Positions 27,078 to 41,766 of a stretch of DNA of 58,756 nucleotides are shown piece by piece. The notes under the pieces are model-generated. The model did not search any database and was not told the DNA's origin. It saw only the letters and a program-made list of their open reading frames with translations. The stretch comes from Candidatus Tenebribacter burtonii. GTDB taxonomy: Bacteria > Cloacimonadota > Cloacimonadia > Cloacimonadales > TCS61. The position numbers and the translations under genes were made by a program. The stretch spans positions 1 to 58,756 of the forward strand of contig JAVCCF010000151.1 in the NCBI GenBank assembly GCA_030765625.1, written 5' to 3'. Every line of letters begins with the position of its first letter. Position 1 is the stretch's first letter.

Positions 27078-27454
27078 AGAATAATTTTGGGGAAACTTTA
27101 GCGAAGACTGATTTATTGCCATTTACTTATTCAGCACATTACTAACTAAATCTCTTTTGTTCGTTTTTGTTAAAGTGAAGTTGTCGTTTTGCTAATGCAA
27201 AACCAACAATAGTTGTTCGTTTCAGTTCGATGCTAAATATTCTTTTTTTAACTCCAACCAAAACCTTGACATTAAAATCTTCTATTTAAGATTTGCTTTG
27301 CGCTGAAGTAAAGGATTCTAAGGCTTTATTATAAGTAATGATACTTTACCGACAGGGTATTTTTGGAAACGAAAATATCTCCCGTGTTTGGAAAGGCGAG
27401 AAGGAAATAAAAAATACTCATCCTCTTGCCTTCAAAATTATTTTTGGAGGACAA

Positions 27455-28285
27455 ATGAACAAATTCACAAAATTACTTTTTATCGGTGTTATCATTCTAT
27501 TCACTTTTGTAGCCTGCGATGATAATCCATCAGAGAATCAAACAGAAGACCCAATCCCACCATCTTTTGCCGAAGTAGTAGACATTGAATTCACAATTCC
27601 TGATTCTACAGAGCTACTTACTTTCACTACAGAACAAATCGATTACAATGGTTTAATGGTAACAGGTTATTCACTTGATCAATTCATTGATGAGGATTCT
27701 GTTAATACTTATCTTGATGAAGATGATTTTGATGGTAGGAAATTATTTGCAGTTGAGATCGTATCAGGTGATGGTTATACGCCTCGCGAGCATGATTATT
27801 ATGATCTAACCTGGGAAGATTTTGCAACAGGTTTTTTGCTTCCTTCCGAGAAAGGCAGAACCTATTTTATTGATGAGAACATAGCTTCTGGATATAATGT
27901 AAAATGGGCTCATCATCTCCGTCTTTATAGAAAGATCGATGTTGTACTTGATGCCAATATAACAATATTTGAGCCAGGTGCATTCACACCACAAGAGATC
28001 ACTTATACAAAAGAAGGAGAGTCATATACAGCAAATGCTATCGAATTGGAAAACTTCATCTCAGATTATGTTACTGAAGATCCACAGAATTATGAATTCC
28101 TTTTCACAGCTGCCGATGGTTGGGTGAATGATGATTCCAATAATATTTTTGATTGGGATACAATTCAAAACAGTTATTGGCTTCCTGAACGAAATAAAGC
28201 AGTTTTCTTAGATGCCAATTTCGACACAATCTTCAAAAGTGTAAAAGTTGTTGAAAAGATAGATTTGGTGGAGATTCAAAGATAG
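27455..28285 (+). CDS. Lipoprotein with two tandem related domains, ECF-TonB locus
   Basis: 276 residues from ATG 27455, which has GGAGG at 27446-27450; the frame opens earlier at 27338 but only this start gives a lipoprotein signal (LLFIGVIILFTFVAC). The mature part is two copies of a roughly 100-residue domain. Copy 1 has VSGDGY, LTWEDF, LLPSEKGRTYFIDEN and RKIDVV. Copy 2 has TAADGW, FDWDTI, WLPERNKAVFLDAN and EKIDLV. The pattern resembles the oxidoreductase molybdopterin-binding fold without its cofactor cysteine, as do the proteins at 28830 and 30163; that is inference. First gene of the uptake locus, overlapping the next by one base. A periplasmic ligand-capturing role is likely. Confidence 0.65.
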   Translation: MNKFTKLLFIGVIILFTFVACDDNPSENQTEDPIPPSFAEVVDIEFTIPDSTELLTFTTEQIDYNGLMVTGYSLDQFIDEDSVNTYLDEDDFDGRKLFAVEIVSGDGYTPREHDYYDLTWEDFATGFLLPSEKGRTYFIDENIASGYNVKWAHHLRLYRKIDVVLDANITIFEPGAFTPQEITYTKEGESYTANAIELENFISDYVTEDPQNYEFLFTAADGWVNDDSNNIFDWDTIQNSYWLPERNKAVFLDANFDTIFKSVKVVEKIDLVEIQR

Positions 28286-28821
28286 TGAACTGGCTGAGGA
28301 AATATTCATCTCAAGATCTGCTTTATATAGCTATAATGAGTGCTCTGGGGTTAGCGGTCAAACCGATTGTCACTCCGCTTATTCATCTTATTTCCGCTCC
28401 CCTAATGATACCCGGTGGTTCGCTTGCCGGTGGTTTATATATGATGTGGATAGCACTTGCTATCGCGATTGTGAATAAACCAGGAGCAGGTTTTCTTGTT
28501 GGAATTACACAAGCTATTGTTATGTTGAGTTTGGGCTATTTTGGAAACCACGGTGCTGTTTCATTGATAAGTTATACTATGCCGGGATTAATGGCTGAGA
28601 TAGTTTCATTATTCTTTAAAAATAAAAGAACTATATTTTTTCATGTTCTTGTTGTGACTGTAGCCAATCTTACGGGTGCTGTTATTGTAACAATAATTGT
28701 AATGAGGCTTGCATCGATTCCATTTGTGATTTCACTCACCGCTGCCAGTATTTCAGGAATTGTAGGTGGCATTATTTCATATTCAATGTACAATAAACTT
28801 AAAAAATATAGAATAATATAG
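28285..28821 (+). CDS. ECF transporter S component (YkoE/ThiW-like)
   Basis: 178 residues with about five to six membrane helices: a small integral membrane substrate-binding subunit that docks with an ECF A-A'-T module. The block GGLYMMWIALAIAIVNKPGAG followed by a helix and GNHG resembles YkoE-type S components (GIW ... RKPGAALVSEI), a family linked to hydroxymethylpyrimidine/thiamine uptake. The match is weak and the substrate must be treated as unknown. The start is GTG 28285, overlapping the TAG of the lipoprotein gene by one base. A and A' ATPases and T are encoded further down the same locus. Confidence 0.7.
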   Translation: MNWLRKYSSQDLLYIAIMSALGLAVKPIVTPLIHLISAPLMIPGGSLAGGLYMMWIALAIAIVNKPGAGFLVGITQAIVMLSLGYFGNHGAVSLISYTMPGLMAEIVSLFFKNKRTIFFHVLVVTVANLTGAVIVTIIVMRLASIPFVISLTAASISGIVGGIISYSMYNKLKKYRII

Positions 28822-28829
28822 GGAGAAAT

Positions 28830-29738
28830 ATGAAGGTAATAATATTTGGAATAATTCTATTTGTAAGTTCACTGCTCTTTTCAATTGAACTTATAGATGC
28901 AGAAAGAATTATTAACTTAGAACGAACAAAATTAGATAGTTATGAGCAGGCTGAATTAGAAACTTATCGTAACAAAGATGGTGAAGAAAAGGATGATAAT
29001 TGGATTGGCGTGAAACTAATTGATATTTTACAGGAATACGGTATTTCCAATTATGACAAATTGTGTTTTATCTCTTCAGATAATTATCTTGTGAGAATTG
29101 CTAAAGAAGATATCTTAAATAAAGAAGTTGTTTTAGCTTTAGTTAGGAATGGCAAGACACTCGATAATGAACATATTCGTCTGGTAATCCCTGAAATACG
29201 AGATATGTTCTGGATACAAGATATCAGTACAATTAAAACTGAATCAATCTTTGACATTCCCTTTCCACATACAATATATTTTGCAGAACCCATTATTAAT
29301 AAAACACAAATTAGAGATGAACTGCCTCCATTTATTAGAGTAACTGGTTACACCTTCCCAGACATCATGTCTCAAGCATTTCCATTTCTCAAAGATGAGG
29401 TACTGGTAGTTGGAAAAGACGGAGTGAAGCATAATTTGGATTATGATAAATATTTAAAGAATGCTCTTTTAATAAAAAATGGTGATTCATTTGATTTGAA
29501 AAGTCCTGATATGCCTGCAGGAATGTGGATCAAGAATCTTGCTTATGTTCAAATCTTTGATGTTGTAGTTATCTTCCAAAGTCATTTCATGTCGCTTACT
29601 GATGTAAATAATCTACTTAATTGGAACAACTTTCCAGAAGAAGTAATTCTCCATTTTGGTGAGAATACAGAAAAGCAAAGTTCAAATGAAAAATTCAATA
29701 TTAGTAATTGGAATAGAGCAGAATGGTTAGAATGGTAA
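28830..29738 (+). CDS. Exported protein with oxidoreductase-fold-like domain, ECF-TonB locus
   Basis: 302 residues with a signal peptide (KVIIFGIILFVSSLLFSIEL). Residues 20-135 contain WIGVKLIDILQEYGI, ISSDNYLVRIAKEDI and IRLVIPEIRDMFWIQDI. The order resembles the molybdopterin-oxidoreductase fold (substrate-pocket GxxLxDIL, then ... RLVxP ... WI). The protein at 30163 follows the same order, so the two are probably paralogues. The second half (from YTFPDIMSQAFPFL) looks like a diverged second copy. No cofactor-binding cysteine is evident. It is located 8 bases after the S component, with GGGAGA before ATG. Probably a periplasmic partner of the transporter; function unknown. Confidence 0.6.
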   Translation: MKVIIFGIILFVSSLLFSIELIDAERIINLERTKLDSYEQAELETYRNKDGEEKDDNWIGVKLIDILQEYGISNYDKLCFISSDNYLVRIAKEDILNKEVVLALVRNGKTLDNEHIRLVIPEIRDMFWIQDISTIKTESIFDIPFPHTIYFAEPIINKTQIRDELPPFIRVTGYTFPDIMSQAFPFLKDEVLVVGKDGVKHNLDYDKYLKNALLIKNGDSFDLKSPDMPAGMWIKNLAYVQIFDVVVIFQSHFMSLTDVNNLLNWNNFPEEVILHFGENTEKQSSNEKFNISNWNRAEWLEW

Positions 29739-30163
29739 GAAGAGTTTCAATTTTATTTCTCGTCCTACTCCTTTTTTCCTGTTCACCAAAGAATTTAATT
29801 CTTACTGGAAACATTAAAGACGGAGTAGAGATTAGCGATTATGGCAGGTTTGATGAGATTCTTAGTTTTGCACCTTCTGCAAAATACGCTCTTCTAATTG
29901 GTTCTGATGGAACTGCTGCTTTAATAACATCGCGAAGTTTTTCTAAAATCTACATCCAAAAAGATAAGAATTGTTGGAATTCCAAAGCAGATATTTTACC
30001 AGCAGTTTGCAATATTCGTAATCTAAAAGAAATATGCATTTATACCAAAACTTCAATTGAGGATAATAATTTTTCTAAACGAATGAATGATTTTGAGTTC
30101 TTAGGACAAAGCAGCAAGAATGGATATTATGCAAGAAAATATAAGGAACGAAGTAGAGATTAA
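29723..30163 (+). CDS. Small lipoprotein, ECF-TonB locus
   Basis: 146 residues; MVRRVSILFLVLLLFSC is a lipoprotein signal. It overlaps the previous gene by 16 bases. ATG 29732 is an equally possible start and would give a cleaner signal peptide. The mature 120 residues (for example FDEILSFAPSAKYALLIGSD, and a Cys pair in KNCWNSKADILPAVC) match no family I recognise. Its TAA overlaps the next ATG by one base, which ties it to the same operon. Presumably anchored in the outer or inner membrane facing the periplasm. Confidence 0.6.
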   Translation: MVRMVRRVSILFLVLLLFSCSPKNLILTGNIKDGVEISDYGRFDEILSFAPSAKYALLIGSDGTAALITSRSFSKIYIQKDKNCWNSKADILPAVCNIRNLKEICIYTKTSIEDNNFSKRMNDFEFLGQSSKNGYYARKYKERSRD

Positions 30164-30594
30164 TGAGGAAGAAAATTTTATTAATTCTTGTTATTCTAAT
30201 TCTAATTCTTCTTGCACTTTCATATTATCAGAAGAGTAAAGCAACAGATGGAGAAGGAATTAAGATTACTTATAAAGACCAAGAAACATTTCTTACTTAT
30301 TCTAAGATTAATTCAAGTGAGAAAGTTAGTTTCACAACAGGACGTGGTGATAAATTGAATGGCTTCGATTTAGCTAACATTCTCAAATCTTTAAATATTC
30401 CAACCGATATTAAAACAGAGTATATTCTTCATTCGAAAGATGGTGGAAGACTCAATTTAATTAAAGAAGAAAATGAAAGAATTTATCTTGTGTTTCAACA
30501 CGATGCGAGAGGTCAATTTGTTCGATTAGTTATACCATCAGATGAATTTAGTCAGCGTTGGATTAAATACCTAGAAACAATTGAAATAAAATAA
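30163..30594 (+). CDS. Membrane-anchored oxidoreductase-fold-like protein, ECF-TonB locus
   Basis: 143 residues with an uncleaved or cleavable N-terminal hydrophobic segment (ILLILVILILILLALSYY). The body shows LNGFDLANILKSLNIPTDI, LHSKDGGRLNLIKEE and VRLVIPSDEFSQRWIKYLET, the same order of motifs as the protein at 28830. It looks like a minimal single-domain version of the putative binding proteins of this locus. It shares one base with the genes on both sides (TAATG overlaps at 30161-30165 and 30592-30596). Function unknown; periplasmic side expected. Confidence 0.6.
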   Translation: MRKKILLILVILILILLALSYYQKSKATDGEGIKITYKDQETFLTYSKINSSEKVSFTTGRGDKLNGFDLANILKSLNIPTDIKTEYILHSKDGGRLNLIKEENERIYLVFQHDARGQFVRLVIPSDEFSQRWIKYLETIEIK

Positions 30595-31256
30595 TGTTAA
30601 AGTTAGAAAATATTACCTTTAAATATAATGAAGATTCACCATTATTGATAAATAATTTTTCATTCGCTGCTGAAAGAGGGGATATTATTGCTGTTAAAGG
30701 TGATAGCGGTACCGGCAAAACAACACTATTGAATATTATCTGCAGTGTGATCCCAAAAATATTTACCGGAGACCTTTCAGGAAGTATTTTCCACAATAAT
30801 GTTGATATTTCCAAGTTATCTCTTCCCGAAATTGCACCCCGAATAAGTTTGTTAATGCAGCATCCAGATAATCAACTTTTTTTTCCTACAGTTGAACAGG
30901 AACTTGCTTTTGCTCCGGAGAATCTTAATATTCCTGCAAAGAATATTGTAAAGCGAATTGATGATATCCTTACCAAACTGAATATTGAAAACTTGAGATA
31001 CCAAGAAACGACTTCACTCTCATTTGGTCAGAAAAAATTAGTTACTTTTGCATCTATTATCACACTTTCACCCACTGTATATTTACTTGATGAGCCATTT
31101 GCAGGACTTTCAAAAAAATATATTAAGCTGACTTCTGGTGAGATAAGAACCCAAGCAAAAAATGGAAAGATAATATTTCTTGCTGGTCATACTACCGATA
31201 TTGCTCAATTTGCAAATAAAACAATTGAAATGGGAAAATTGAATGAAGAGAATTAA
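30594..31256 (+). CDS. ECF transporter ATPase subunit A
   Basis: 220 residues, an ABC ATPase of the ECF/CbiO type. Walker A is GDSGTGKTT, the Q-loop region QHPDNQLFFPTVEQELAF is diagnostic of ECF A subunits, the signature is LSFGQKKLV and Walker B is VYLLDEP. It couples ATP hydrolysis to rotation of the S component in the membrane. It overlaps the following ATPase gene by 14 bases. With A', T and S it forms a dedicated (group I-like) ECF module, because all four are in one locus. Confidence 0.9.
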   Translation: MLKLENITFKYNEDSPLLINNFSFAAERGDIIAVKGDSGTGKTTLLNIICSVIPKIFTGDLSGSIFHNNVDISKLSLPEIAPRISLLMQHPDNQLFFPTVEQELAFAPENLNIPAKNIVKRIDDILTKLNIENLRYQETTSLSFGQKKLVTFASIITLSPTVYLLDEPFAGLSKKYIKLTSGEIRTQAKNGKIIFLAGHTTDIAQFANKTIEMGKLNEEN

Positions 31257-31926
31257 AATAAAAGATCTGTCATTTGCTTATCAAGCCAAAAATCCCATTT
31301 TCGCAAATGCTACACTTGAACTTCCATTTAATGAGATCACATTTTTGAAAGGAGAGAATGGTTCTGGGAAAACTACATTATGTAGGATTCTTAGCGGTCT
31401 GGAAAAGAACTATTCTGGTTCAATTCTTCTTAATGATTTAGATTTAAAACCAGTTTCTTTTTCAGAACGTGCAAAATCAATTATTTATCTAAAACAAGAA
31501 CCACTTTCAAATGTTGTGGCGGCAACTCCCGACGAAGATCTAACTTTATGGCAAATTGGTTTTGATAAAGAAATCAATGAACTTTCTTCTAAACTAAGAA
31601 ATAAAGTAATGGAAAAATTAAAAATTAATGATCTTAAAGATAAACCTTTCTGGGAATTAAGTGGAGGGCAAATTAAGCGGATTGGATTAGCCGCATTATT
31701 AATAAACTATGATAAATACTGGATTCTTGATGAGCCAGTATCAGGACTTGATAACACAATTACCGGAATATTTATTGAGATTATTGAAGAACGAAAAACT
31801 TTGGGGAAAGGATGCCTGATTATATCTCACAAAGAAGATTATTTTTCAAATTTAATTGATAAGAGTTATATAATTGATAACAAGAAAATTAAAAAATTGT
31901 TTAGAGGAAATTTTGAAAATATTTAA
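31243..31926 (+). CDS. ECF transporter ATPase subunit A'
   Basis: 227 residues, second ABC ATPase of the module. Walker A is GENGSGKTT, the signature is LSGGQIKRI, Walker B is YWILDEP and the H-loop is LIISHKE. It is clearly diverged from its partner, as expected for a heterodimer; the Q-loop here is KQEPLSNV. It overlaps the A gene by 14 bases and the TonB receptor gene by 14 bases. Confidence 0.88.
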   Translation: MKRIKIKDLSFAYQAKNPIFANATLELPFNEITFLKGENGSGKTTLCRILSGLEKNYSGSILLNDLDLKPVSFSERAKSIIYLKQEPLSNVVAATPDEDLTLWQIGFDKEINELSSKLRNKVMEKLKINDLKDKPFWELSGGQIKRIGLAALLINYDKYWILDEPVSGLDNTITGIFIEIIEERKTLGKGCLIISHKEDYFSNLIDKSYIIDNKKIKKLFRGNFENI

Positions 31927-33799
31927 TTTGATTATTTTATTATTCATTTTCACAAATTCATTAATAGCTTCCGAGATAGATACTCTTAAAACAATTATGC
32001 GACATTACAATTTAGATGGTATAAGGGTGATAGCCGATAGACCACAGGAAACAATTGGTGCAGTTGAAATAATTGAGCTTGATCCGGTACTGTCTCTTCC
32101 CGAAACAAATATTGCAGAATCGGTAGAAAAAGTAAATGGATTGCATGTTTCCACTGGTGGGAAATCCGGCAGTACATTACGCATAAGAGGATTTGGGAAT
32201 GATCAAATAAAAATAATGCTTGATGGCAGACCACTTGGTGGCGGGTATTTTGGAAATGTTGATCTAAACACGATCCCTGTTTCTGATATTAAAGAGATAA
32301 GAATTCTCAAAGGCCCTGTATCTTCTCTTTATGGTTCTGATACAATGGGTGGAGTTATAAATATTATCACAAATTCCCCTTCTAATACATCTTGGTTAAA
32401 AATGGGAACTGAATTTAAAAGAAACAATACAAATAAATCTTATCTTTCATCAGCAAGAAATTTTGGAGGGTGGGATTACTGGTTATATACATCTCATTAC
32501 AACACAGATGGTTTTATGCTATCAGAGAGTTTTGAACCAACAAATTATGAAGATGGTAAAATAAGAAATAATTGTAAAAGAGATCAATGGGATTTGCAAT
32601 CCAAGTTTAATTTTACAATATTCGATTTTCATTCGATTGGGTTTCAGGCAGGTTGTACATTTATGGACACTAAAGAAATTCCTGAAAGTATTTATGAAAA
32701 TAATTTGCGTGAATTCACAGATTGGAAACGTTATCAATTCTCTGCACTCGGTTCGTTCCAATTAAGATACAACCTTACTTCCGATATAAATATTTATTAC
32801 GACCGTTATGATGACACTTACGCTGAATATAATCCTTCCACAGGTGTTATGAATTCAAGTTGGCCTTCCAATATAAAAAGTTGGACTATAGGAACTCATC
32901 AAAAATTTGATTGGGAAATTACCAAGCACATTGATTCAATCTTCGGTTATCGCTTTGAAAAACAATCCTACTTAAGAAAAGATAATGGAAATTATCCTGA
33001 CTGGTTTGGAAATGAACAATTAAACCATAACATTTTCTGGCAGACTGAATATAAGTATAATTCAATCAATTTTACTGCCGGCAGCGGTGTCTCATTTTTC
33101 AAACAAAAAGGAAGAGACAGTTGGATTTCCCATTTCGAACCTTCAGTCGGAGTCTATTTTAAAAACTCACTTAATTGGAAATTATCATTAGCTTTCTCTT
33201 CCAATACAAAATATCCTACGATGCATCAATTGTTCAGTAGCAGCAGTGGAAACAGTGATCTTATAGAAGAGCGAGCTCAAAAAAGTGAATTCAATTTACT
33301 TATTCCTTTTTCATTTGAATCTTTTTCCGGTTCCATCCAGCAATCTATCTTTTATAATCATATCACAGGGTTAATTGAGAAAATTGGTGGAACAAATGAA
33401 AACATAGATCATATCAACTCATACGGCTATGAGGTTTCTTCTAAAATATATTTTATTTGGGAACATCAAGCAGATTATTCTTATCTAAAATATACGAATG
33501 AAAGTAATTTGGAATTATTGGGAACACCGAGTCACACGGTTGGATTGACCGAACGAGTTGAGCTTCCATACTCATTAAAAATGGAATATACTGCTTTTTG
33601 GAAAGATGTTCGACATACAGAAGAAAATATTGATCTTCCTGCTTACTGGCTACATTCTGTTTATTTCAATAAAAAAATTAGTAGATATAAATTTATGGTT
33701 GGGGTTGAGAATATATTTGATCTTAATTATCAAGAAGAATTTGGGTATCCCGGAGAAGGGTTGAATTTTGTTTTGAAATTGGAAGGTGAATTATTTTAG
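31913..33799 (+). CDS. TonB-dependent outer membrane receptor
   Basis: 628 residues from TTG 31913 (AGAGG at 31903-31907), which gives the signal peptide MKIFNLIILLFIFTNSLIAS; the frame is open further upstream but inside the A' gene. A plug domain follows (NIAESVEKVNGLHVSTGGKS, LRIRGFGNDQIKIMLDGRP, VSSLYGSDTMGGVINIIT) and a 22-strand type barrel ends in an aromatic residue (Phe). It takes up a scarce nutrient across the outer membrane with TonB energy; no tonB, exbB or exbD is in the window. Its place between A' and T implies that it feeds the ECF importer. The plug resembles BtuB/vitamin or metal-chelate receptors more than SusC types (no N-terminal carboxypeptidase-like domain). Confidence 0.88.
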   Translation: MKIFNLIILLFIFTNSLIASEIDTLKTIMRHYNLDGIRVIADRPQETIGAVEIIELDPVLSLPETNIAESVEKVNGLHVSTGGKSGSTLRIRGFGNDQIKIMLDGRPLGGGYFGNVDLNTIPVSDIKEIRILKGPVSSLYGSDTMGGVINIITNSPSNTSWLKMGTEFKRNNTNKSYLSSARNFGGWDYWLYTSHYNTDGFMLSESFEPTNYEDGKIRNNCKRDQWDLQSKFNFTIFDFHSIGFQAGCTFMDTKEIPESIYENNLREFTDWKRYQFSALGSFQLRYNLTSDINIYYDRYDDTYAEYNPSTGVMNSSWPSNIKSWTIGTHQKFDWEITKHIDSIFGYRFEKQSYLRKDNGNYPDWFGNEQLNHNIFWQTEYKYNSINFTAGSGVSFFKQKGRDSWISHFEPSVGVYFKNSLNWKLSLAFSSNTKYPTMHQLFSSSSGNSDLIEERAQKSEFNLLIPFSFESFSGSIQQSIFYNHITGLIEKIGGTNENIDHINSYGYEVSSKIYFIWEHQADYSYLKYTNESNLELLGTPSHTVGLTERVELPYSLKMEYTAFWKDVRHTEENIDLPAYWLHSVYFNKKISRYKFMVGVENIFDLNYQEEFGYPGEGLNFVLKLEGELF

Positions 33800-33858
33800 A
33801 AAGTAAAGGAAATAGAATTGAAGAAAGAGAAACTGGCTCTAAAGGTTCATCAACATTA

Positions 33859-34578
33859 TTGAACTTACGTACAATAATTGTAATTGTTTCAGCAATTACA
33901 ACACTTTCTGTAATTCACAACACAATAATAATGCAGGTATCGTTACTTTTATTTTCATTTTTTTTATTACTTATAATTCAACCTTCAAAGCACAGATTTA
34001 ATCGGCTTATGCATAGGATGAAATTGATCTTAAGGGTTGTTATAACTTTAATGATATTTCAGATATTATTCCGTCAAGGTGGAGGAACTATCTGGCAATT
34101 TGGAATAATCAAGATTACAAGTTTGGGTGTAAATTATGGAGTTTCATCCTCCTTGAGACTTATGCTGATAGTTCTTATTGCGGGTTTGTTGCTTGATATC
34201 CCATATTATGATTATATTCTTGCTTTCAGAAGTTGGAAGATCCCTTATGAAATTTCTTTTCTGGTCGCTTCGGTTATTCATTTCATACCAATCTTTCATA
34301 AACAATTTATCACAAGCCGAGAAGCGTTGAATCTTCGAGGAATTGAAATCTCAAAGTCTCCATTTCTAAAACGTTTAAAGATATATTCAGCACTTGTCTT
34401 TCCGGTTATTGCCAGAGCGATCTCAGAAGTTAAGTATCGCTCAATATCATTAGAACTTCGAGCTTTCAGATTAAATCCGGAAAGAACATTTATTTATCAG
34501 GCAAAACTAAAATGGTTTGATATCGTTATCCAAATTGGTGTTTGTATCGGATTTGGAGTGATCATTCTGATTGTATGA
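33859..34578 (+). CDS. ECF transporter transmembrane subunit T
   Basis: 239 residues, four to five membrane helices, with two cytoplasmic coupling motifs of the T family: REALNLRGIE and SLELRAFRL (the Ala-Arg-Gly-type helices that contact A and A'). It scaffolds the S component and the two ATPases. The start is uncertain: TTG 33859 is the first conventional start codon, but AAAGGA at 33805-33810 would better fit an upstream ATT at 33817. It is the last gene of the uptake locus. Confidence 0.85.
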   Translation: MNLRTIIVIVSAITTLSVIHNTIIMQVSLLLFSFFLLLIIQPSKHRFNRLMHRMKLILRVVITLMIFQILFRQGGGTIWQFGIIKITSLGVNYGVSSSLRLMLIVLIAGLLLDIPYYDYILAFRSWKIPYEISFLVASVIHFIPIFHKQFITSREALNLRGIEISKSPFLKRLKIYSALVFPVIARAISEVKYRSISLELRAFRLNPERTFIYQAKLKWFDIVIQIGVCIGFGVIILIV

Positions 34579-37095: not shown

Positions 37096-38202
37096 ATGAA
37101 AAATATTATAATTTTTCTTTTCATTTTCTTTTCGTGTTTCTTGTTCTCTCAAGAAGTATTATTGATTATTTCTGATAAACCAAATGATGATGGTTCTGCA
37201 TTATTAATATCATGGGACACTTCACAAATTGTATCTTCAAAGATCACTATTGATAGAGAAATAGCAAATGGAGAATTTATTTCAATAACAAATTCAGAAG
37301 AGTTAACAGGCACTTTCGAAGACGGTTCTAATATCAACCCCGGGATTAAATATGAGTATAGGTTAACAGCTTTTGACAATAATGGTGAGATCATTCAAAT
37401 TTATAGAACTTCAGGAGAATCATCTGTTCAATGGTTTAATAAAAAAAAGATCTCACTTCTAATTTTTGCCATACTGATAACAATCTCAATAGTTTACTAT
37501 ATCTTCTCTGCAAGAAGTGGAAAAGATCTATACATTAGAAAGATAAGTGGTTTGGAATCTATGGATGAATCTGTTGGTAGGGCTACTGAAATGGGTAGAC
37601 CTATTCTCTTCATTCCCGGCACATTAGATCTTGATGATATGCAAACGATTGCAGGACTGACAATACTCCGAAGATTGGCTCAGAAAGCCGCAGAATATGA
37701 TGCAAAACTAATTGTTCCTGTCTGCCGTTCGATGGTACTTTCTACAGCAAAAGAAATTGTTAAAGAAGCTTATATGAAAGCTGGTCGTCCTGATGCATAT
37801 GATCCCGATTCGGTTTTTTATCTTACTGATGATCAATTTGGTTATGTTGCAGGAGTCGATGGTATTATTGTACGTGAAAAACCAGCAGCTAATTTCTTTC
37901 TTGGTGCCTTCTATGCTGAATCTTTAATTCTGGCAGAAACCGGATTTTCCAGTGGTGCAATTCAAACTGCGGGAACTGCTATGCCAAGTCAGCTACCATT
38001 TTTTGTTGTTGCTTGTGATTATACACTTATCGGTGAAGAATTATTTGCTGCTTCAGCATATCTATCAAAAGATCCGCATCAACTCGGAAGTCTGAAAGGT
38101 CAGGATTTTGGAAAAGCAATATTTATAGTAGTTTTAATGATTGGAATTATTCTGGAAATTTCTGGTATTCATTTCCTCAAAGATTTCTTAACATTACATT
38201 AA
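37096..38202 (+). CDS. DUF6754-like membrane protein, cluster gene 1
   Basis: 368 residues. Signal peptide (IIIFLFIFFSCFLFS), an FN3-like domain at 20-110 (DGSALLISWDTSQ ... YEYRLTAFDNNGE), a membrane helix at about 117-138, a roughly 200-residue soluble domain, and a C-terminal helix (IFIVVLMIGIILEISGI). The soluble domain (MGRPILFIPGTLDLDDMQTI, TAKEIVKEAYMKAGRPDAYD, CDYTLIGEELFAASAYL) matches my recollection of the DUF6754 family; its activity is undescribed. First gene of a four-gene unit with short gaps or one-base overlaps, so all four probably act together in the inner membrane. Confidence 0.65.
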   Translation: MKNIIIFLFIFFSCFLFSQEVLLIISDKPNDDGSALLISWDTSQIVSSKITIDREIANGEFISITNSEELTGTFEDGSNINPGIKYEYRLTAFDNNGEIIQIYRTSGESSVQWFNKKKISLLIFAILITISIVYYIFSARSGKDLYIRKISGLESMDESVGRATEMGRPILFIPGTLDLDDMQTIAGLTILRRLAQKAAEYDAKLIVPVCRSMVLSTAKEIVKEAYMKAGRPDAYDPDSVFYLTDDQFGYVAGVDGIIVREKPAANFFLGAFYAESLILAETGFSSGAIQTAGTAMPSQLPFFVVACDYTLIGEELFAASAYLSKDPHQLGSLKGQDFGKAIFIVVLMIGIILEISGIHFLKDFLTLH

Positions 38203-38212
38203 GGAGAAGAAC

Positions 38213-38908
38213 ATGAAAAGAAAGATACCATTATTAATAACATTCACAGTTGGAATAATTTTGATCATTTCAGAATTCATACCTCACAAACCATTCGGTC
38301 AATTATCTGGTGAACTGGAGATATGGTTTTTGATAATTTCCGGATTTGCTATTTTGCTGGGGCAATTAAGCTTGTTCAAAGTAAATATATTAAAAATAAA
38401 ATACAAACAACGGGACTGGCAGTTTTACACAATCACACTCATTAGTTTTATAATTATGGTTACACTTGGTTTTTTATGGGGAACCGGAAAAAGTGCTGGA
38501 ATGTTAGGTCATGGAGAAGCTATTTCAAGTATGTTGGGTTATAAACCTTTCGATTATCTTTTTCACAATATTTACCAGCACTTGCAGGCAACCATGTTCT
38601 CTCTACTGGCTTTCTTTATAGCTTCAGCAGCGTATAGAGCTTTTATTGGAAGAACTGTAGAATCTAATCTGCTACTTGCATCTGCTGTTCTGGTTATGCT
38701 AGGTAACACAACTCTTGGAAGTCTTTTAACTGGCTGGTTACCGGAATCACTGAATTTTCTTCATCTTCCAAAAGTATCTGAATTTATTATGACTTTCCCA
38801 ACAACTGCCGGACAACGTGCTATTATGATTGGCGCAGGTTTGGGAATCATTGGAAGTTCTCTTAGGATAATTCTGGGAATTGAAAGATCTTATCTGGGAG
38901 GTGAATAA
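38213..38908 (+). CDS. Polytopic membrane protein, cluster gene 2
   Basis: 231 residues with about six membrane helices; the loops include WGTGKSAGMLGHGEAISSML and FHNIYQHLQATMFSLLAFF. No family recognised. Not an exporter or channel I can name. AAGGAGA precedes ATG 38213, ten bases after gene 1; the stop shares one base with the start of gene 3 (TAATG at 38906-38910). The tight coupling suggests fixed stoichiometry with its neighbours. Confidence 0.65.
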   Translation: MKRKIPLLITFTVGIILIISEFIPHKPFGQLSGELEIWFLIISGFAILLGQLSLFKVNILKIKYKQRDWQFYTITLISFIIMVTLGFLWGTGKSAGMLGHGEAISSMLGYKPFDYLFHNIYQHLQATMFSLLAFFIASAAYRAFIGRTVESNLLLASAVLVMLGNTTLGSLLTGWLPESLNFLHLPKVSEFIMTFPTTAGQRAIMIGAGLGIIGSSLRIILGIERSYLGGE

Positions 38909-39741
38909 TGGGAAAAGCTAAACAAATAGACAGAAGATGGTTATTCCTTTTAATATTCTTCGGAGTTGCTTTTCCTCTTATTTTCACTCTCGGACTTCCT
39001 CTGGAAACAACAAAAAATGTCCAGATGGTTTATGATTTAATAGATAATATGCCTAAAGGTTCCAAAGCTCTTATCTCTTTTGATTATGATCCTGCAAGTA
39101 TGCCGGAATTACATCCAATGGCAAAAGCAATTGTTAAGCATTGTTTTGATAAAGATATTAATTTGATTTTCACAGCAATGTGGCCAATGGGAGTACAAAT
39201 GGCTGATGATATTATCTATCAATTAAAAGATGATTATCCTGATCTTGAATATGGTGAGGATTACGTTAATCTTGGATTTAAAGCAGGAGGGATGATTACG
39301 ATCCAGTCTATGGGGAAAAACTTCCGCGAGGTGTTTCCAAAAGATATGAATGGAAATAATATTGATGAACTTCCAATTATGGAAGGGATAAATAATTTTA
39401 GTAATATTGGATTCGTTTTCTCGCTTTCTGCAGGAGCTCCGGGGATTAAAGAATGGGTACAAATAGCGCATGATGCTTATGGAAGACCAACATCTGGAGG
39501 AGTTACAGGTGTAAGCGCTCCTGCAATTTTGCCTTACGTAAATGAACAACAACAATTAACTGGGCTTCTTGCTGGATTGAAAGGAGCTGCAGAATATGAG
39601 ATATTGTTAAAAGCACCAGGAACCGCAATTAGTGGAATGGATGCTCAATCTGCCGCTCATTTGATTATCATTATTTTCATTATTATTGGAAATGTAAATT
39701 ACTGGCGGAATAAAAAAGCTGAAAAAATGGGAGGTAAATAA
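38908..39741 (+). CDS. Membrane-anchored soluble-domain protein, cluster gene 3
   Basis: 277 residues. N-terminal helix at 13-30 (LLIFFGVAFPLIFTLGL), a soluble domain of about 210 residues, and a C-terminal helix (LIIIIFIIIGNVNYW). The domain starts MPKGSKALISFDYDPASMPE and continues FTAMWPMGVQMADDIIY and SAGAPGIKEWVQIAHDAYGR, which reads as an alternating alpha/beta (Rossmann-like or hydrolase-like) fold. No catalytic signature is certain. It overlaps both neighbours by one base. With two anchors its domain probably faces the periplasm opposite gene 1's soluble domain, but topology is inference. Confidence 0.6.
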   Translation: MGKAKQIDRRWLFLLIFFGVAFPLIFTLGLPLETTKNVQMVYDLIDNMPKGSKALISFDYDPASMPELHPMAKAIVKHCFDKDINLIFTAMWPMGVQMADDIIYQLKDDYPDLEYGEDYVNLGFKAGGMITIQSMGKNFREVFPKDMNGNNIDELPIMEGINNFSNIGFVFSLSAGAPGIKEWVQIAHDAYGRPTSGGVTGVSAPAILPYVNEQQQLTGLLAGLKGAAEYEILLKAPGTAISGMDAQSAAHLIIIIFIIIGNVNYWRNKKAEKMGGK

Positions 39742-40382
39742 TGGAACAGTTCTTTGCAACATTAGGTATCTGGCTGGGCGCACTCTTTACTTTTGCTATC
39801 TTTAGCTTTCTTTATAAAGACAATCCTTTCTATAAAACTGCCGAACAAATATTCGTTGGACTCTCAGCAGGATACTGGTCTGTATACACGATCTTTTTTA
39901 TTCTTATTCCAAATCTATATGAACCTTTAACTCAAAATTTCAATGCCAACTGGATAAAATTAATACCGGCAATTCTGGGAATTATGATGTTACTGCGCTT
40001 AATTCCTAAAATAGAGTGGGTTAGCCGGTTCCCTCTATCTATTGTGATTGGGACAACATCAGGGGTATTCTTTCTTCGCTATTTAAAATCTGATGTGCTA
40101 AATCAATTAACTGCTACAATGATTAACCCATTTTTGGGGGAGAGCTGGGTAATTGTAATTGGAAAAATAATGCTAATTATTGGAACTATCTGCGGTGTCG
40201 TTTACTTCTATTTTAGTAAGAAACATATTGGTGCTTTAGGTGTTTCAGCAAAAATTGGAATTTATTTCTTAATGGTAAGTTTTGGTGCTGCTTTTGGCTA
40301 TACTGCTATGGCACGTATTTCTCTTCTAATAGGAAGATTACAATTTCTCCTTGGAGACTGGCTTGGTATAATTCAACCATAA
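39741..40382 (+). CDS. Polytopic membrane protein, cluster gene 4
   Basis: 213 residues with about six helices (for example FFATLGIWLGALFTFAIFSF and IVIGKIMLIIGTICGVVYFY). A conserved-looking loop FYKTAEQIFVGLSAGYW lies after the second helix. No family recognised. It closes the four-gene unit, with one-base overlap to gene 3. The next gene (mobB-like) starts 32 bases downstream, so it may belong to the same transcript. Confidence 0.6.
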   Translation: MEQFFATLGIWLGALFTFAIFSFLYKDNPFYKTAEQIFVGLSAGYWSVYTIFFILIPNLYEPLTQNFNANWIKLIPAILGIMMLLRLIPKIEWVSRFPLSIVIGTTSGVFFLRYLKSDVLNQLTATMINPFLGESWVIVIGKIMLIIGTICGVVYFYFSKKHIGALGVSAKIGIYFLMVSFGAAFGYTAMARISLLIGRLQFLLGDWLGIIQP

Positions 40383-40414: not shown

Positions 40415-41164
40415 ATGAAAGTTTTTAGCATAGCTGGATATCACCATACAGGGAAAACTACAACATCTGTAGAACTGATAAAAGAACTAAAAAAAAGAGG
40501 ATTTAAGGTAACCTCTATAAAAGACATCCATAACGAAAATTTTACAATGGAAAAGAAAGGAAGTAATAGTTGGAAACATGCACAAGCCAGTGGTGATACA
40601 GTTATTGCCAGAGGAATATCAGAAACATACCAAATTTGGAATAAGCAACTTTCTTTGAATGAAATGCTTTCTCATCTTGATAGTGATTATGTGGTTGTAG
40701 AAGGAATGAAAAACGTAGCTCTTCCTCGCATAATTTGTGCAACAGATGAAGAGCAACTTGAAGAACTTGTTGATGGAACAGTCTTCGCAATTTCCGGAAA
40801 ATATTCAGATGAGCATAACATATATAAAGATCTTAAAGTATTCAAATCAAAGGATCAGATAAAAGAACTCACGGATCTTGTAATTGAAAAAGTATTTTCC
40901 GTACTTCCACTTCCAAAATTTGAATGCTGTGGTGAATGTGGAATGAATTGCAGAGAAATGGTCTCTGGAATTTTAGCCGGGCGTAATACTCGTGAAGATT
41001 GTAAAACAGATCGCAATCTTGATATTAAAATAAAAATTGCTGGCAAGGATATCAATATTGTACCATATGTTCAAAATACCCTGAAAGATATTATAAAAGC
41101 TTATGTTAAAAATTTAAAAGGTTACAGGAAAGGCGATAGTATTGATATTAAGATAAGAGAGTGA
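40415..41164 (+). CDS. mobB: MobB-like P-loop protein
   Basis: 249 residues. The N-terminus KVFSIAGYHHTGKTTTSVEL is the MobB P-loop, and VTSIKDIHNENFTMEKKGSN matches the family's second block (IKHDxHxxxxDxxGxDS). MobB supports addition of GMP to molybdenum cofactor. A C-terminal extension holds FECCGECGMNCREM and a later Cys (EDC), a cysteine cluster seen in archaeal and anaerobe versions that may bind Fe-S or zinc. No mobA or moa genes are near. The kinase-fold gene follows with overlap or a 2-base gap. A role outside Moco, for example as a general nucleotide switch, is possible. Confidence 0.75.
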   Translation: MKVFSIAGYHHTGKTTTSVELIKELKKRGFKVTSIKDIHNENFTMEKKGSNSWKHAQASGDTVIARGISETYQIWNKQLSLNEMLSHLDSDYVVVEGMKNVALPRIICATDEEQLEELVDGTVFAISGKYSDEHNIYKDLKVFKSKDQIKELTDLVIEKVFSVLPLPKFECCGECGMNCREMVSGILAGRNTREDCKTDRNLDIKIKIAGKDINIVPYVQNTLKDIIKAYVKNLKGYRKGDSIDIKIRE

Positions 41165-41166
41165 TC

Positions 41167-41766
41167 ATGAAAGCGGAAATAATTATCAATAAAGAAAAAA
41201 ATCAAGTTACTAAAATATGCAATTCCCCAAAGATGTTTAAAAAAGAACTGTATATTTATAAAAAAAAATTACGATACACACCAAGACTTATTGATAACGA
41301 TGGCAAAAATACACTTATATTAGAATTTATTAACGGAATTCCAAGTATGGATCTTGCGCAGCCAAATTTTGTAAAGATCACTGAGTTAATGATAAATTTT
41401 CATTCACTTGAGTCCAAAGGCGATAAATGTATTTGCCATTATGATAATAATCCCAAAAATTATCTTTTTGCAAATGGTAAGTACTATATGTTGGATTTTA
41501 GTGAATGGACTTATGATTTTCCAGAAACTGATTTAATTCATTTTCTTTTATTCTGGGCTTCTGCTTATAGCTCTGATAGATTTAAATTTGTGTTTGAGCA
41601 AGTAATAAGTACTTACAAATCTAAAAGAATGATAAACCCTTTGGAATGGGAATTAATGATACCTGAGATTATTTTGAGGTTTGATTCCCGTAGAAGGAAA
41701 TTCGGTAAAAAAGAAACACATCCTGACATTTCAAAAAACAGAGAAATGTTAAAAAATATTATTTAA
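41167..41766 (+). CDS. Kinase-fold (APH/RIO-like) small protein
   Basis: 199 residues from ATG 41167; GTG 41161 is an alternative that overlaps the previous stop. The block CICHYDNNPKNYLF has the catalytic Asp and Asn of the protein-kinase/aminoglycoside-phosphotransferase loop (HxDxxxxN), and MLDFSEW is the metal-binding DFG-like motif with Ser for Gly. The N-lobe is short: an ATP-binding Lys could lie in the first 45 residues, but no glycine loop is seen. ILEFINGI is the hinge. It may phosphorylate a small molecule or a protein. Downstream of mobB on the same transcript. Confidence 0.6.
   Translation: MKAEIIINKEKNQVTKICNSPKMFKKELYIYKKKLRYTPRLIDNDGKNTLILEFINGIPSMDLAQPNFVKITELMINFHSLESKGDKCICHYDNNPKNYLFANGKYYMLDFSEWTYDFPETDLIHFLLFWASAYSSDRFKFVFEQVISTYKSKRMINPLEWELMIPEIILRFDSRRRKFGKKETHPDISKNREMLKNII

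Follow-up and report, generated by a model that had tools for sequence, protein, structure and literature searches.

A TonB–ECF locus of Candidatus Tenebribacter burtonii as a candidate trans-envelope importer of the tungsten cofactor

Gene content of the locus

The window, that is, the whole 58,756-nucleotide stretch of Candidatus Tenebribacter burtonii DNA that was analysed, contains nine forward-strand genes at 27455-34578, in the order LP1-S-SUOX-LP-EXP-A-A'-TonB-T (Table 1). An earlier note, made from the sequence alone, had described nine mostly overlapping genes on one strand, and this was confirmed, with overlaps of 1-16 bases. The exceptions are gaps of 8 bases ahead of the gene at 28830 and of 59 bases ahead of T; the TTG start of the receptor is uncertain, the true start probably lying a little downstream of 31874. 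Such small overlaps and gaps are typical of one operon. The start of LP1 is backed by a GGAGG at 27446-27450, and its lipobox cysteine was found to be invariant among 18 homologues. The note had also proposed a survey of the co-occurrence of the exported proteins with S and TonB genes; the order LP1-S-SUOX-LP-EXP-A-A'-TonB-T was found again in many Cloacimonadota genomes, and the arrangement is therefore not a matter of chance.

Table 1. Features of the locus and of its surroundings in the window.
Feature	Position	Strand	Evidence
Moco/Tuco riboswitch aptamer RF01055	27289..27414	+	Outside 27455-34578
Predicted expression platform	27393..27458	+	P1 3' strand / CCUCUUGCC anti-sequestor versus GGAGG-hiding hairpin
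LP1, outer-surface or periplasmic lipoprotein	27455..28285	+	Lipobox C21; model pLDDT 90
ECF S component, YkoE-like	28285..28821	+	PF09819 52.9 bits, cut-off 25.2
Exported SUOX-fold protein	28830..29738	+	PF00174 33.6 bits versus gathering 24, E 3.7e-8
Lipoprotein (LP146), N-terminal SUOX-like domain	29723..30163	+	Predicted model pLDDT 89
Membrane-anchored exported SUOX-like domain protein (EXP)	30163..30594	+	hhalign to 28830 family
ECF ATPase A	30594..31256	+	PF00005 78.8 bits; best NCBIfam ECF_ATPase_1
ECF ATPase A'	31243..31926	+	PF00005 88.1 bits
TonB-dependent receptor, BtuB-like	31874..33799	+	Plug PF07715 82.8 bits
ECF T component (CbiQ-type)	33859..34578	+	PF02361 51.6 bits
MobB/FeS-domain protein	40415..41164	+	PF03205 74.2 bits; TIGR00176 80.6 bits, cut-off 76.2
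Small APH-like kinase after MobB	41161..41766	+	PF01636 24.5 bits, cut-off 23.2

The S component, two ATPases and the T component of a group I ECF transporter are encoded together, all above the cut-offs of their families (PF09819, PF00005 twice and PF02361). The outer membrane receptor has both the plug and the barrel of TonB-dependent receptors and gave a near full-length match to NCBIfam TonB-B12 (100.6 bits, below the cut-off). A cobalt or B12 ligand, as the names ABC_cobalt and TonB-B12 might imply, was rejected, these being family labels only, and no cobalamin riboswitch was found. Between T and the MobB gene, at 37096-40382, lies a four-gene membrane cluster led by a DUF6754 protein, which recurs in related genomes. 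MobB directly follows T in other Cloacimonadota, T and MobB are also neighbours in Firmicutes, and the MobB protein of the window is a probable cytoplasmic partner in cofactor handling. A small protein similar to the APH-like kinase follows MobB in Sedimentibacter (L200:14963-15580, judged by eye); we are unsure whether this kinase is a member of the importer system.

The riboswitch and its regulon

The RNA directly upstream of the locus matched RF01055 over the whole model (positions 1-135; 62 bits, gathering 36, E 1.6e-12), in the form lacking P3, the P3 hairpin columns being deleted in the alignment. P3-lacking forms of the Moco/Tuco riboswitch go with genes of the tungsten cofactor, Tuco (Regulski et al. 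2008, PMC2408646). Downstream of the aptamer, a sequestor hairpin hiding the GGAGG of LP1 was predicted (-12.7 kcal/mol, z -3.7), together with an anti-sequestor segment in which the 3' strand of P1 pairs with the hiding strand (-14.5 kcal/mol, z -3.5). The two are mutually exclusive, and the predicted platform fits a translational OFF switch, a direction that we infer.

The survey covered 125 Cloacimonadota genomes, mostly metagenome assemblies. A search for riboswitches in other members had been suggested in the earlier note; RF01055 was present in 75 of the 125 genomes and in 14 of the 19 Firmicute loci scanned, usually upstream of the cluster. Among the 104 riboswitches with readable downstream genes, 76 stood before genes of this locus; an aldehyde dehydrogenase followed in 15 cases and an aldehyde:ferredoxin oxidoreductase (AOR) in 8, and the remaining 5 preceded something else or nothing. 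The presence of S was associated with that of the riboswitch (Fisher p 2e-12), and the presence of the riboswitch with that of AOR or formate dehydrogenase (Fisher p 4e-14), both values, computed over the 125 genomes, being too small because the genomes share ancestry.

The aldehyde dehydrogenase preceded by RF01055 in 15 cases (L110:6376-8001, L112:6551-8173 and 13 further loci) belongs to PF00171 and is P5CDH-like; it may replace AOR, without needing the cofactor, at times of cofactor shortage. A close S-A-A'-T group was found to lack the riboswitch (L114, L115, L154-L157 and L160), mostly in genomes with no AOR match, and possibly takes a different ligand.

The earlier note had counted relatives lacking the TonB gene or the exported proteins against a single joint route, and such relatives were found in part. 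Genomes of the Cloacimonas type have a divided locus, with LP1 and the TonB gene standing elsewhere, yet under a separate copy of the same riboswitch. Some genomes of one family (f13) carry riboswitch-S-A-A'-T only, and the Gram-positive loci have no TonB gene and keep both the riboswitch and the exported proteins. LP1 would accordingly be a partner of the TonB receptor, the two travelling together under the riboswitch.

The S component

The membership of S in PF09819, a family that includes the thiamin-binding YkoE, could be taken to indicate a YkoE-type importer of thiamin or HMP, next to which the SUOX-fold proteins would be ordinary periplasmic molybdoenzymes. The two YkoE residues characteristic of the thiamin pocket are, however, replaced in nearly all aligned S proteins, with Tyr in the column of Trp49 and Pro in that of Gln95, the latter conserved across the S family. 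The phylum also holds a separate YkoE-like group (>100 bits) that lacks the riboswitch, the riboswitch of the locus is of the Moco/Tuco and not the TPP class, and the SUOX-fold proteins have no conserved cysteine. We regard this reading as scarcely credible, and thiamin and HMP were rejected as ligands on the grounds of riboswitch class, pocket residues and the separate YkoE group. A PDB sequence search with S gave no matches.

The exported proteins

Twenty of 27 homologues of the 28830 product matched PF00174. The molybdenum-ligating cysteine of catalytic sulfite oxidases was not found, no cysteine being conserved among these 27 homologues; enzymatic activity is therefore unlikely for this family and was set aside for the SUOX-fold proteins. 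Residues D84, Y86 and W128 were invariant. PruR, a periplasmic protein of the SUOX fold without metal-ligating cysteine, binds pterins (PMC13259868), and its N-x-Y motif, whose tyrosine contributes to binding the pterin, corresponds in the alignment to the invariant D84-N-Y86. Judged from sequence, the 28830 product is a probable carrier of a pterin cofactor. The 30163 product is, from its alignment to the 28830 family (hhalign 98.8%, E 1e-16), a sure homologue with the same fold; 8 of 24 of its own homologues matched PF00174, and a PDB sequence search with its family returned a PruR as the sole match (E 0.53).

LP1 and the 29723 product gave no sequence-level family match, and a PDB sequence search with LP1 returned nothing meaningful. 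The predicted model of LP1, with two SUOX-like domains, had its best fold matches to PruR (probability 0.99, with a weak E of 0.036) and YedY (0.80), and that of the 29723 product to the molybdenum domain of nitrate reductase (0.98) and to sulfite dehydrogenase (0.96), with a weak E (0.22). The best high-probability fold matches of both confident models are all SUOX-fold, with weak E-values, and the two proteins may share this fold. Long homologues of the 29723 product in many relatives carry an additional PF01663 nucleotide pyrophosphatase domain, which is absent from the copy in the window. The four exported proteins, unfamiliar according to the earlier note, now appear to be relatives of SUOX-fold and PruR-type pterin-binding proteins by PF00174, hhalign and predicted folds.

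Cofactor use without synthesis

AOR-family tungsten enzymes were found in 83 of the 125 Cloacimonadota genomes and clear matches to formate dehydrogenase in about 22. Searches for biosynthesis genes, which detect their targets in 11 of 14 control genomes, found MoaC in 3, MoeA in 2, the MoaA C-domain in 2 (weak) and MoaE (PF02391) in none of the 125. The genome from which the window comes (98% complete) encodes two AOR-family proteins and a formate dehydrogenase with an in-frame TGA, a probable selenocysteine codon (L274:4618-7308, minus strand), clustered with genes for MobA-like, FdhD-like and formate-channel-like proteins; the searches for biosynthesis genes found none in this genome. The MobA-like assignment refers to matches of 85-119 bits, mostly in genomes bearing formate dehydrogenase, with the MobA equivalog cut-off unreached in all 125. 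The loss of pterin synthesis and metal insertion with retention of MobA suggests that the compound imported would be the metal-loaded, nucleotide-free cofactor. As expected of a salvage transporter, the importer would stand in for lost biosynthesis in cofactor users, a link seen as a correlation only.

An importer of an earlier pterin, either cPMP or metal-free molybdopterin, with the cofactor then finished by the cell, would suit the pterin-binding fold and the riboswitch equally, since these could serve any member of the pathway. The absence of MoaE, which converts cPMP to MPT, from all 125 genomes and of MoeA, which inserts the metal, from 123 of them argues against it, and we consider it unlikely. 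A second alternative is the import of tungstate, molybdate or a metal chelate, the pterin being supplied by an unrecognised pathway. Metals are frequent substrates of group I ECF systems, and in both genomes with MoaC and MoeA, neither of which has this S gene, RF01055 precedes a tungstate/molybdate-type ABC importer (named by eye); the same switch would therefore control metal import in genomes that make the cofactor and the ECF system in those that do not. Most of the phylum, however, has no known pterin-making or metal-inserting enzyme, and metal import leaves the SUOX-fold carriers, MobB beside T and the nucleotide pyrophosphatase unexplained, so that we hold it to be a shade less likely still than import of an earlier pterin.

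About 15 genomes with cofactor enzymes, some incomplete and some not, have neither this S nor MoaC; three of them keep riboswitch-LP1, and among the others G074, G076 and G088 look near complete. One of the genomes with MoaC and MoeA (G059) holds a moeA-moaA-moaC-MOSC-MOSC-mogA cluster (L276:6902-10678), with no MoaE by PF02391, and possibly encodes a divergent MPT synthase. As even the genomes holding MoaC and MoeA lack MoaE, a non-orthologous, unrecognised route of cofactor synthesis may exist.

Distribution in Firmicutes

Relatives of S numbered 257 in the species collection. The Firmicute S proteins form one group in the S tree, which includes two incomplete sequences and was used for grouping only. 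Their gene neighbours are PF00174 exported proteins, a PF01663 protein, A, A' and T, followed by MobB (PF03205, 76.5 bits). Outside the focal set, 27 of the 29 S-bearing genomes checked have AOR and 17 retain MoaC, and the importer is therefore at best supplementary there, often standing beside synthesis. In Firmicutes the importer is flanked by FMN-binding/SUOX fusion and NapH-like Fe-S proteins (for instance at L200:6596-9422), which perhaps carry out a redox step on the cofactor. L147, labelled Armatimonadetes, has the gene layout of the Cloacimonadota contig G071:C55 and is probably a mislabelled bin.

Proposed function

For the ligand, which the earlier note had left open among pyrimidine, pterin, tetrapyrrole and metal chelate, the following point to a tungsto- or molybdopterin cofactor: the class of the riboswitch, the molybdopterin-binding fold among the exported proteins, the presence of MobB and the lack of biosynthesis genes. 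The results support the note's proposal that one compound travels from outside to the cytoplasm, with the extra proteins spanning the periplasm. Altogether, we consider it probable that the locus is a trans-envelope TonB and ECF importer of the finished tungsten cofactor, possibly also of the molybdenum cofactor. The TonB-dependent receptor and LP1 would take the cofactor across the outer membrane, and the exported SUOX-fold proteins, lacking metal-ligating cysteines, would serve as periplasmic binders of the unstable pterin and pass it along. The nucleotide forms MGD and MCD would, in many relatives, first be trimmed to the mononucleotide by a lipoprotein nucleotide pyrophosphatase. Transfer of the cofactor into the cytoplasm, where MobB probably assists, would then fall to the group I ECF transporter (YkoE-like S, A, A' and T). 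The imported cofactor could be used directly by aldehyde:ferredoxin oxidoreductases, and MobA and FdhD could serve the selenocysteine formate dehydrogenase. The Tuco-type riboswitch would sense the cofactor and most likely stop translation when it is abundant.

Somewhat less firmly, though still as a likely conclusion, most Cloacimonadota and some Firmicutes would be auxotrophs for the complete tungsten or molybdenum cofactor, fed by their neighbours through a dedicated TonB-ECF route with SUOX-fold periplasmic carriers, and the system would be the first named importer of finished Moco or Tuco in any organism. The free pyranopterin cofactor is oxygen-labile, and extracellular supply is therefore plausible mainly in anoxic habitats. 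If the proposal holds, a labile metal cofactor would join the shared goods of anaerobic communities, Cloacimonadota would rely on partner organisms for a cofactor of key importance to their catabolism, and exported non-enzyme 'sulfite oxidase-like' proteins would gain a function; the system might also become a tool for loading molybdo- and tungstoenzymes in other hosts. The locus provides named candidate genes for direct import tests, also in the cultivable Firmicutes Sedimentibacter acidaminivorans and Alkaliphilus pronyensis.

Comparison with known systems

The nearest transporter is YkoEDC, a group I ECF system for thiamin, with which the locus shares an S component of PF09819 and dedicated A, A' and T genes; it differs in the replaced Trp49 and Gln95, the Moco/Tuco riboswitch, the exported SUOX-fold partners and the TonB gene. 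The exported proteins resemble PruR in being small, of the SUOX fold and devoid of the molybdenum-ligating cysteine. PruR, however, acts in c-di-GMP signalling, whereas the proteins of the locus are tied to a transporter, several having two domains, and have transporter genes as neighbours instead of the DcpA-type regulator gene paired with PruR. The overall design is that of BtuB/BtuFCD, with a TonB receptor, a periplasmic binding step, ATP-driven inner-membrane import and riboswitch control for a costly cofactor, but with an ECF system in place of a type II ABC importer, several SUOX-fold carriers in place of BtuF, and another ligand. The regulon described by Regulski et al. (2008) is governed by the same RNA class, its P3-lacking form likewise occurring with tungsten enzymes, although its known members are concerned with synthesis, metal import and enzymes, and cofactor import was not described; the unexplained 'sulphite oxidase' riboswitch targets of S. 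wolfei in that work may be these exported proteins.

According to the prevailing view, cells requiring Moco must synthesize it, and the passage of Moco across membranes is listed as an open question (PMC9793310). No Moco importer was found in the openly accessible literature searched. The closest parallel is the dietary uptake of Moco by Caenorhabditis elegans, which likewise uses Moco made by another organism (PMC9793310); no transport mechanism has been described for the animal, whereas the present locus supplies a named bacterial candidate.
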